64,000 nucleotides of DNA from an uncultured Hyphomonas sp. (lineage in GTDB: Bacteria; Pseudomonadota; Alphaproteobacteria; Caulobacterales; Hyphomonadaceae). Location: positions 434,001-498,000 of the forward strand of contig NZ_OY782759.1 of assembly GCF_963678195.1 (NCBI RefSeq), read 5' to 3'. The notes beneath the pieces were generated by a model. The model was not told where the DNA came from. It saw only the letters and a list, made by a program, of their open reading frames with translations, and did no database searches. The position numbers and the translations under genes are program-made. Below, one piece after another: positions 54,059 through 56,426 of the stretch. The stretch's first letter is position 1; each line of letters starts with the position of its first letter.

Positions 54059-55554
54059 ACCCTCGAAACAAGCGGGGAGCTAAGGGGCTAAGGTTGAACA
54101 GTATAGAGAAAATTTAGTTGAAACTGATGAGATCGCGAAATTTCCTATTTAGGAAATTGTTTGTGGCTTGATCTCTCTCAACACGTGATACTCGAAGTAG
54201 ATTGAGCAACTCCTCATCGTTGATCGTAATTAGATAGCCTCTATCATCCTTGACGAAAGACTGTGCCCGCTCTTGAAGTGCCCGCAAGTTTTGTACTTTT
54301 CGGTAAAATAGTAGACCTATAAACCCGCGTTGTTTTGAAAATCGGCCGTTCAGCTGATCAAATTCCTCGTTACTGATCTCGTCGCTATAATTTTTGCATT
54401 CAACTGGAACGGTTCTGGCCCTAATATTTTGATCGCGACTCATATCATTCCAAAAACCAATCTTTGCATAATTCCAAAACTCGATATCGAGACGTTTTCG
54501 ACCCTTATGGACTGGGCGCTGTGCCTTTGGAAAAGTGAGGTGTGGCCAGAACAACAAAGTCATGGCTCGCTGCACAAGTTTTTCATATTCATCAGCGTGT
54601 TTCCTCCCTGGTGGAAGGCTTCGAAACTGTACGCTTAGCGCAGAGGTGGCTTCTGAATACACGAAATCTGGGTCAATATAATTATCGTCAATGCCATCAG
54701 CACTTCGCATGATTTGCTTGAAATTTTCGAACTGAGCTGGGTGCTCCTGAGCGAATTTTGCAAGTTGGGTTTTGTCAAAAGGGTAGCGTTCCTTGACTCT
54801 TTCCTTAGTGACTCTGCCGCTCTTGCCACGAAGTGCCGATGCTAGTGAGGCTCGAGGTTCCAATTCTGCCTGTAGGTAATCCAAGTAATAGTTGTAGTAT
54901 TCTTGACTATCTAAACACAGCCTTTGGCGCACCAATGATTTGGGAACTAGCAAAACGGGTGCATTGTTGATGATTGGCATATCCGCGTAGCCGGACTTCC
55001 ACATTTCTTCTTCTGCATCCCAGAACGGAGGCATAGCAACCTTCCGTGTCTGAATATCATAAATGTCGCAAATGCTCTTCGTGTAGGCCATAAGAGGTTC
55101 CCGCAAAACATTTGTCGACAAATCAGAAATTTTGTCGGGACCAACACCTTCTACGAATAGTTCAGCTTCTGAAAAATCTTCTAGTTGTCCGGTACGGAAA
55201 GCCTCACTTCTGCGGATCGCATCGATAAGTGCCATTGCTTGTTTGCTGCCAACACCATGACCTTTTGGCTTCCCTTTCGAATATCCAAGAAAAGTATCCT
55301 TTGGTTCTCTTAGGTGCCCCACCAGAACTTTGGCTCTCTCATTATCTTCGAGGCGCAAGCAGTCTAATAATGTGGAGAAAAAAGAGAGCAGGCAATCATA
55401 GAACGGATCATCTTTATCCAAAGCATTTATCTGTATTGCATACGGATCTACGAAGAGCCGCATGTCATGTGCGGGATCAACATCAACGAAGTCTAGTTCG
55501 CCTTGCGATGCATTCAGCCTGAAATGCTCAGAGAAAGTCATAATACCCTCGAAA
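54059..55554. repeat. 10-bp direct repeats bracketing the nuclease gene
   Basis: ACCCTCGAAA occurs at 54059-54068 and at 55545-55554, so the pair encloses exactly the nuclease gene (54114-55541). It may be a target-site duplication or attachment core of a single-gene insertion. A 10-base match between two short flanks is uncommon but not impossible by chance. Confidence 0.45.
54114..55541 (-). CDS. Putative PD-(D/E)xK nuclease, AT-rich, possible defence gene
   Basis: A 475-residue protein, clearly more A/T-rich than the chromosome. N-terminus MTFSEHFRLN and DMRLFVDPYAI define an all-helical domain of about 300 residues. The C-terminal part has restriction-endonuclease-like order: helix around E318-E320 (YEKLVQRAMTLLFWP), D352 in RKRLDIEF, E381-C-K383 in VPVECKNYSDEI, and Q396 in FDQLNGRFSKQRGFIGLLFY. 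This fits Mrr/REase-type nucleases. I recognise no named family. ATG 55541 has GAGGG upstream. No methylase or partner is next to it. A role against phage or plasmids is inference. Confidence 0.72.
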   Translation of the reverse strand: MTFSEHFRLNASQGELDFVDVDPAHDMRLFVDPYAIQINALDKDDPFYDCLLSFFSTLLDCLRLEDNERAKVLVGHLREPKDTFLGYSKGKPKGHGVGSKQAMALIDAIRRSEAFRTGQLEDFSEAELFVEGVGPDKISDLSTNVLREPLMAYTKSICDIYDIQTRKVAMPPFWDAEEEMWKSGYADMPIINNAPVLLVPKSLVRQRLCLDSQEYYNYYLDYLQAELEPRASLASALRGKSGRVTKERVKERYPFDKTQLAKFAQEHPAQFENFKQIMRSADGIDDNYIDPDFVYSEATSALSVQFRSLPPGRKHADEYEKLVQRAMTLLFWPHLTFPKAQRPVHKGRKRLDIEFWNYAKIGFWNDMSRDQNIRARTVPVECKNYSDEISNEEFDQLNGRFSKQRGFIGLLFYRKVQNLRALQERAQSFVKDDRGYLITINDEELLNLLRVSRVERDQATNNFLNRKFRDLISFN

Positions 55555-55590
55555 TCGGTGTGTCAACTTGAGGGGGAATTGTGTCTGTGT

Positions 55591-55853
55591 CTAGCTCTTG
55601 CTTAAATAAATCTCTCCGCCCTTGTCCATAAACTCGCGGCTCTTCTCTTCCATCCCTTTGCGCGCCTCGGCGGCCTGTTTCTCCAAATCGTTCCGTTCGG
55701 TCTCGCTCATCCCCGCTGCATATTCCCGCACTTCGGCGGTGATCTTCATGTTGCAGAATTTGGGGCCGCACATGGAGCAGAAGTGGGCGACCTTGTGGGC
55801 TTCTTTCGGCAGGGTCTGGTCGTGGAAGTCGCGGGCGGTTTCGGGGTCGAGGG
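55591..55853 (-). pseudogene. thiC: Second copy of the thiC 3' end
   Basis: About 87 codons matching the C-terminus of ThiC, from [20 protein letters not shown] through the iron-sulfur cluster motif CSMCGPKFC to GGEIYLSKS and a stop. By hand count about 24 mismatches in 248 bp against the intact gene (56472-56719), only about four in the 130 bp nearest the break. The fragment is not a recent copy and probably came from another thiC or was displaced by insertion. It has no start of its own. The stop of the next gene upstream (TAA 55864-55866) is in frame with it. Confidence 0.9.
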
Positions 55854-55863
55854 GATTGGCGCC

Positions 55864-56331
55864 TTACGGGTTGCTGGGCGTTGACAGTCTTTGTTCGAAA
55901 ACGAGTTTGATAAAATCGTGCTCGGTTATGATCTGCTCTTTCAAAGCCAATAGACGACGTCTTCCGCATCGTGCGTCCGAAATCGCCAATCCCCGGATCA
56001 GAACTGCTTCAGACGCCAACATGTCATCAATGCTCATACTCAAACTATCAAACAGCATTTCGTTTGATTGGGACACCGGGGCCAAGCCTTCAGCGGCGAC
56101 TTTCTCAAATGAGTCCTCGTAGGTGTCGCCAGATTTCAGGTGAGTCTGCATTAATTGCGAAGCTTTGAAGTCTGACGTTGAGTATATGCGTTTCTTGTCG
56201 AGCGTGACCCAGATTTCGCCTAATCGATGATGGTGGCCCATTCGCTGGCGCGTCTCATAGATATGCAAGCGCCCTTTCAGACAATCGGCGAAGCGGTCTT
56301 CCAGTCTTTGCTTGAGCTTGGACCATTGCAT
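55864..56331 (-). CDS. AT-rich small protein between the thiC copies (SF0329-like)
   Basis: A 155-residue protein starting MQWSKLKQRLEDRFADCLKGRLHIYETRQRMGHHHRLGEIWVTLDKKRI. This start resembles the small SF0329-type family (WSKLK, ED-FA, KGR, W-T-DK) as I recall it; the match is not checked. The rest is helical and acidic without clear motifs. Base composition differs from neighbours. It ends where the thiC fragment begins and starts about 95 bases after the intact thiC stop. Confidence 0.65.
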   Translation of the reverse strand: MQWSKLKQRLEDRFADCLKGRLHIYETRQRMGHHHRLGEIWVTLDKKRIYSTSDFKASQLMQTHLKSGDTYEDSFEKVAAEGLAPVSQSNEMLFDSLSMSIDDMLASEAVLIRGLAISDARCGRRRLLALKEQIITEHDFIKLVFEQRLSTPSNP

Positions 56332-56426
56332 TTATCTGTATCCCAAAGAGCCCATCCGTAGAGTGTCGTTGAGCAAAGCGAAGTGCGTCATCTGCTCCAA
56401 TGGTGCATTTCGTGCCTCAATGTACT

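Follow-up and report, generated by a model that had tools for sequence, protein, structure and literature searches.

Introduction

The core defence hot spots cDHS1 and cDHS2 of Pseudomonas aeruginosa have fixed core flanks and a variable defence content, with median lengths of 26 kb and 6 kb and tRNA or tmRNA flanks, as given in an excerpt of the report (PMC10250203). Defence-gene hot spots flanked by core genes are also described for E. coli, in an excerpt of PMC10121019. In the accessible part of Oliveira et al. 2017 (PMC5635113) most hot spots are said to lack integrases, and double homologous recombination at the flanks is proposed. Here we describe a slot behind the thiC gene of an uncultured Hyphomonas sp. 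(genome G000, one contig of 3.67 Mb), analyzed in a window that comprises the whole stretch of 64,000 nucleotides at positions 434,001 to 498,000 of contig NZ_OY782759.1. The slot contains two genes, one for a 475-residue protein of the candidate defence family PDC-M36A and one for a 155-residue protein of the SF0329 family. It resembles cDHS1 and cDHS2 in having core flanks and variable, defence-like content, and differs from them in its median length of about 1.9 kb (41 loci), in usually holding one or two genes, and in its position behind a protein-coding metabolic gene. With a probability of about 0.62, we interpret this region as a narrow defence-gene slot, in which no mobility genes of its own were found and where recombination through the flanking genes, thiC and slyX, is the main route of turnover.

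The proposed mechanism follows the one that the accessible part of Oliveira et al. 2017 (PMC5635113) sets out for hot spots devoid of mobile elements. One difference is that physical leftovers of both flanking genes, in the form of thiC tails and slyX pieces, are present within the thiC slot or next to it. Hot spots of defence genes are already known; what appears to be new is a slot that is usually one to two genes wide, lies behind a protein-coding metabolic gene, has so far been seen in one family and retains visible leftovers of its flanking genes. No published thiC hot spot was found in the literature searched, which lacked most subscription journals. A Campylobacter paper considered as a report of such a site presents ThiC, in the part of it available, as a metabolic difference and not as an insertion site.

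Results

The slot behind thiC in the genus and family

The thiC gene was found in 38 of 42 genomes of the genus and 94 of 105 genomes of the family, and the region behind it was taken from all 38 genus genomes and from 40 of the 56 genomes of other genera with a thiC match. The GC content of the first 800 nt behind thiC, measured from +30, was below 0.52 in 43 of 76 genomes (20/36 in the genus and 23/40 in other genera), after exclusion of two genomes whose contigs were too short (G010, G015) and of half of the split G003. The same measure gave no low value at the control genes argH (0/30) and tkt (0/28) in the genus, for which 30 loci each were drawn from 40 and 41 matches, with 28 of the 30 usable for tkt. 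A GC drop of at least 0.08 was found behind thiC in 37/76 family genomes compared to 4/77 named loci from many bacteria, one of the 77 being a Hyphomonas locus without the drop. Genus genomes were also compared in pairs with an identity of 85% or more immediately before the stop codon. The following 300 nt were common to 13/292 such pairs at thiC, 66/66 at argH and 42/69 at tkt. The slyX gene was located downstream of thiC in 41/79 loci, with a median of 1,949 bp between the two genes and 36 of the 41 cases within 3 kb. The slot of G012 was nearly empty, with 132 bp separating thiC and slyX. The content between these core genes is variable, with slyX as the second flank in only those 41 loci. 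Together these comparisons support a real, family-wide hot spot behind thiC, wider than was claimed when the first-pass annotation proposed thiC as a hot spot for small cargo genes. The low GC extends across the family, the cargo changes from genome to genome, and the survey of the thiC-slyX interval that the annotation called for gave differing cargo, and so not the conserved gene order that would have refuted the idea. Matches to thiC were also found on 381 plasmid records, at less than 80% identity.

In the window, slyX and thiC are both on the minus strand, and the M36A-type gene, a second thiC tail and the SF0329 gene are located between them. The features of the locus are:

53762..54022, minus strand, slyX, the distal flanking core gene (PF04102, E 2e-22)
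54023..54043, no strand, right border, about 18-21 nt common to some other genomes, directly before slyX
54114..55541, minus strand, gene for the 475-aa PDC-M36A-type protein, the thiC-distal cargo (open reading frame (ORF) list, PADLOC and PHROG matches)
54117..54677, minus strand, predicted C-terminal PD-(D/E)xK nuclease domain of the M36A protein, residues 289-475 (conserved residues, structure model, Cas4 profile match)
54486-54488, 54399-54401, 54393-54395 and 54354-54356, minus strand, codons of the nuclease residues D352, E381, K383 and Q396, respectively
54678..55541, minus strand, N-terminal domain of the M36A protein, residues 1-288 (structure model, pLDDT 83.5, pTM 0.80)
55606..55853, minus strand, duplicate of the thiC 3' end, covering positions -293 to -45 from the thiC stop (224/248 identical to the gene's own end)
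55864..56331, minus strand, SF0329-family gene, 155 aa, the thiC-proximal cargo (PF25753, E 6e-30; NF049912, E 5e-33)
56427..58328, minus strand, thiC, the host core gene (Pfam ThiC_Rad_SAM, E 6e-183; start codon picked by eye)

The two A/T-rich ORFs and the duplicate thiC 3' end had been correctly described in the first-pass annotation. GC was 0.44-0.54 in 500-base segments starting at 54000 to 56250, compared to 0.57-0.68 in the 3 kb on each side of the slot, and at the protein level the second thiC tail gave a 91% match over query residues 4-91.

Leftovers of thiC and slyX

Clear second thiC tails were identified in 11/78 genomes by tblastn followed by alignment, with scores of 82-472, and G201 carries two extra tails. 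The left ends of the tails, the exact positions of which depend on alignment scoring, were at -285 to -293 from the thiC stop in a shared SF0329 module, at -134/-138 in a shared DUF4440-like insert, and otherwise at -86, -90, -139, -161, -247 and -336. In 31 single-cargo genomes there was no strong second thiC end; seven of these beat their own ten shuffles, with all scores at or below 46. G117 (score 46, not among the 11) may contain a true short thiC remnant. Extra copies of slyX, mostly partial, were present in five genomes, as if accretion had occurred on the slyX side too; G018 is not counted among the five because its two slyX pieces look like one broken copy. The extra copies are at L066:3257-4322, L101:2936-4463 and L103:2614-4144 and in L106 and L102, reversed in the last two, and the intervening DNA has a GC of 0.56-0.65. 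The varied leftovers of thiC and slyX fit additive homologous recombination better than a single fixed attachment (att) site.

In the mechanism that we propose, short donor DNA containing a thiC 3' end and a cargo gene would enter the cell. Two crossovers, one within thiC and one near slyX, would swap the cargo and leave no scar. If the second joint instead fell back inside thiC, or if a circle bearing a thiC tail integrated by one crossover, cargo would be added, and an extra thiC tail would mark the event. Here the M36A cargo would have arrived first, with the SF0329 module added later beside thiC. The vehicle could be a gene transfer agent, transformation or transduction. Gene transfer agents package approximately 4-8 kb of DNA, and a gene-transfer-agent gene was found in 21/42 genus genomes, this one included, making such agents a possible vehicle for short DNA. 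In the host genome, G000:C1:1189120-1189971 matches almost the full length of the GTA_TIM model, so that a gene-transfer-agent cluster is probably present.

Borders of the slot and the possibility of an attachment site

Several observations weigh against turnover by simple homologous exchange. The thiC-side border is sharper than such exchange predicts. In 196 genus pairs, with pairs less than 80% identical upstream excluded, the similarity ended -6 to +11 nt around the end of a conserved Tyr codon in 90 pairs, just after the thiC stop in 84 pairs, and between these two main places in 4. The near-identical tract around SF0329 (see below) begins, as judged by eye, approximately 45 nt before the thiC stop, near the same Tyr codon and not deeper. 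Low GC was absent from 33/76 genomes (16/36 in the genus and 17/40 in other genera), and the gene-transfer-agent gene was not found in the SF0329 carrier G020 or in 20 other genus genomes. Serine recombinases and transposases within the slots were covered only by the best 25 of 51 Pfam families, with no search aimed at them. The remaining border pairs ended 24-36 nt before the Tyr codon (12 pairs), slightly beyond the main places (one pair) or beyond 120 nt (five pairs), the last being pairs with the same insert as judged by per-genome maxima.

A sharp thiC-side border would be explained by a recombinase that recognizes the site or by a class of decayed integrase elements. The thiC 3' end would then be an attachment site with its core at the codons for GGEIY, used by a site-specific recombinase acting in trans or by integrase elements that have lost the integrase and the right end, and the final thiC codons would arrive with each element. 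We regard this as possible, though on present evidence unlikely. The two sharp left borders and the start of the SF0329 tract near the GGEIY/Tyr codon agree with it, as do the cargo-specific thiC endings found directly after GGEIY in G005, G021, G025, G019, G022, G007 and G003. Integrase islands use gene 3' ends, and the thiC slot resembles them in having its border at a gene 3' end and in the replacement of the last thiC codons in several genomes. It differs from them in that no integrase match is listed nearby and no clear second att copy was found. Among the PF00589 matches listed for the genus (about 150, down to about 74 bits) there was no integrase in or beside the element and none within 20 kb of thiC, the nearest being approximately 26 kb away in G007. 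Repeats at both ends were likewise not observed, since the 31 single-cargo genomes have no strong second copy and the tail copies have no common start point. The likeness to islands that use gene 3' ends, drawn in the first-pass annotation, does not hold in these two respects. A search for the thiC end as a phage attachment site (attP) in viruses gave nothing with the thiC tail protein, and the thiC DNA core motif was found in 23 stretches of IMG/VR, none with clear further similarity to thiC. Recombination through thiC and slyX consequently remains the preferred reading of the slot.

The right border is looser, with the common sequence before slyX spanning approximately 18 to 139 nt. In the window, the segment at 54023..54043 apparently remains from a palindromic repeat that relatives have at the same place. 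A palindromic repeat resembling the repetitive extragenic palindromic (REP) type is located approximately 20-140 nt before slyX, on the cargo side, in several genomes of the genus (loci L045, L047, L049, L050, L055 and L064). When it was considered as a mobile end, it was found at three places in this genome with up to two mismatches, and its longer form was absent from the window. The last 12 thiC codons (56427-56465) are in a different frame here than in three close relatives, which end LSETGE-K/T-REAID.

Content of the cargo

The 99 cargo ORFs of the slots, with the four SF0329 copies counted once and a second DUF4440-like gene in G014 omitted, contained only 11 similar pairs (E 1e-5). Family scans used 84 of the 99, leaving out ORFs that were G/C-rich, overlapping or out of the slot, and these 84 proteins matched 51 Pfam families, the best 25 of which include DndB, SduA_C, CHAT and an AHJR-like restriction endonuclease. 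The Pfam matches in the genus comprised DarT and Macro (G036), AIPR (G013), FRG (G021, G007), HEPN_AbiU2 (G008), two weak HEPN-type matches (G014), Fic, HEPN_Swt1 and DUF5343 (G006), zeta toxin (G010), PIN_12 (G009, G003), phosphorylase superfamily (G001), AAA (G005), an M78 peptidase with Beta protein (G004) and GIY-YIG (G035). The same 84 proteins matched 204 PADLOC models, M36A included, compared to 4 models for the 38 window genes outside the slot, and the best 25 of the 204 include AbiU, RmrA, PDC-S15 and PDC-M45. These figures count models and not proteins, and as one protein may match many models and some models are broad, they indicate enrichment in candidate anti-phage systems and not a number of defence genes. 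The family matches support a cargo rich in predicted defence and toxin-antitoxin families.

The alternative that the slot is merely a tolerant place, where any DNA can land behind thiC and defence genes are not enriched, is improbable. G/C-rich genes are indeed present in several slots, for example DUF4440 (G009) and a DUF2268 protease-like gene (G035), and many of the cargo proteins lack a Pfam match. Against this stand the 204 and 4 PADLOC models inside and outside the slots, and the GC drop that is common in the family and rare in other bacteria.

Two cargo genes from different genera (L126:5446-6057 in G187 and L133:4987-5595 in G707, respectively) encode proteins that are 71% identical at the same slot, in which almost all other cargo differs. 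A DUF4440-type gene has an in-frame thiC tail as its C-terminus at L051:1781-2389 and L064:1738-2358, a chimera that apparently arose by insertion behind thiC.

Recent transfer of the SF0329 gene

The SF0329 protein scored 105 bits against PF25753 (cut-off 27) and 115 against NF049912 (cut-off 60) over residues 2-149, above both curated cut-offs, and is thus a member of the family, here carried as cargo. Neither family entry names a function. A PDB sequence search with the protein gave nothing convincing, and no defence paper featuring SF0329 was among the best literature matches. The gene was present in 4 of 42 genus genomes, sampled as one per species, and was always directly behind thiC, followed by the thiC tail and then by a differing second cargo. 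Its DNA is 99.4-100% identical among the four carriers, while the core genes of the same genomes have diverged (thiC 93-95%, slyX 93-97%, argH 88-97% and tkt 91-96% identical), indicating a recent transfer of the SF0329 module. An extra stretch of approximately 131 bp is located between SF0329 and the distal thiC tail in G020 (L047:1955-2097) and is missing from the other three carriers. It is bounded by AGGTGCC/AGGCGCC, and one of its frames presumably resembles the start of a REP-associated transposase.

The M36A-type protein

The 475-residue protein matched the PADLOC profile PDC-M36A in two stretches (E 7e-40), with a second model at E 4e-15, and phrog_27295 over residues 1-471 (E 2e-86). 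The first-pass annotation had called the protein unrecognized; by these profile matches it is a member of the catalogued candidate defence family PDC-M36A, the "M" of which we take to denote a multi-gene system. The annotation had numbered the putative nuclease residues correctly. An alignment of the protein with 14 homologues (15 sequences in all) shows D352, E381 and K383 unchanged throughout and at least 90% conservation of E320 and Q396. The 14 homologues in the alignment are 16-37% identical to the protein and all have the equivalents of D352, E381 and K383; they were taken from 20 homologue loci, with L084 (wrong ORF) and the short L037, L041, L085, L092 and L093 excluded. In the N-terminal part D26, E79, G86, G94, G132, D136, S139, D140, L198 and P200 are invariant in 14 sequences.

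The AF2 model of the C-terminal domain has a restriction-endonuclease-like fold, with Nt.BspD6I, FokI, LlaBIII, EcoT38I and MspJI in the top VIA rows. With Foldseek alone, no match for this domain reached E <=0.001, the best being FokI and MspJI. The M36A profile matched a Cas4 structure at E 8e-5 over profile positions 376-455. The model, named beforehand as a check that could refute the nuclease assignment, contains the PD-(D/E)xK core, with the residues D ... (D/E)xK in order on this fold, and supports the prediction of a PD-(D/E)xK nuclease domain. A PDB search gave no structural match for the N-terminal 288 residues, in which the protein differs from restriction-type nucleases such as FokI and Nt.BspD6I and from Shedu SduA, Can2/Card1 and Cas4, and a PDB sequence search with the single 475-residue protein gave nothing. 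A further difference is that only SF0329 accompanies M36A in the slot, with no methylase or helicase there in the ORF list and profile scans. The N-terminal domain may sense or bind something, and the C-terminal domain would then cut DNA.

Peptide-pattern scans revealed no close relatives of the protein in genome or viral contigs, and tblastn found no relatives in a phage collection. Distant relatives (less than 60% identity) were present on 43 plasmid records, and profile searches found homologues in 10/299 genomes of the order and 11/385 of the class, both counts including G000. No neighbour gene was common to 16 homologue loci with flanks of approximately 1.5 kb, where a single similar neighbour pair was found at differing positions. 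The M36A protein thus looks stand-alone, and it is most likely a stand-alone defence nuclease. No published test of PDC-M36A function was found in the literature search. That the nuclease instead serves the element itself, for example as a homing-type cutter of empty thiC sites driving gene conversion, would suit a stand-alone enzyme with conserved nuclease residues at a site spreading by recombination, yet is very improbable given that G000 is the only genus genome with M36A at thiC (the single further match in the genus, in G019, is weak and on a contig other than that of thiC), that most named cargo families at the slot are not nucleases, and that PADLOC files the family as candidate defence.

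Other features of the locus

No Rfam RNA or riboswitch was found at gathering score in 53000-60000. Between 53700 and 56900 there were no terminator-like sites and one promoter-like site, both below shuffled-sequence counts. Expression by read-through from thiC was considered as a general rule and rejected, as the first cargo was co-directional with thiC in 22/27 genus genomes compared to 16/30 in other genera, the genus count being made by an automatic rule that miscalled G000.

Discussion

A bolder and rather doubtful idea is that the terminal 45-300 or so bases of thiC are a portable handle for docking. Small defence genes would then travel in cassettes that each carry a thiC tail and line up head to tail behind the gene. 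The arrangement would recall an integron array, except that it lies within a metabolic gene and that its cassettes bring no recombinase; either RecA or a recombinase that recognizes the thiC end would drive it. In that case M36A would be a nuclease serving defence, and its N-terminal domain a sensor of a new kind.

The M36A protein is a tractable candidate, as a predicted nuclease is joined to a domain for which no structural match was found. The slot could also serve as a discovery tool, since the one or two genes behind thiC in this family include matches to DarT/Macro, AbiU, AIPR and Shedu together with many unnamed proteins. The locus bears on the way in which integrase-free hot spots acquire and shed their genes. 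The remaining pieces of thiC and slyX look like physical traces of this turnover, and make the process testable in marine Hyphomonas.

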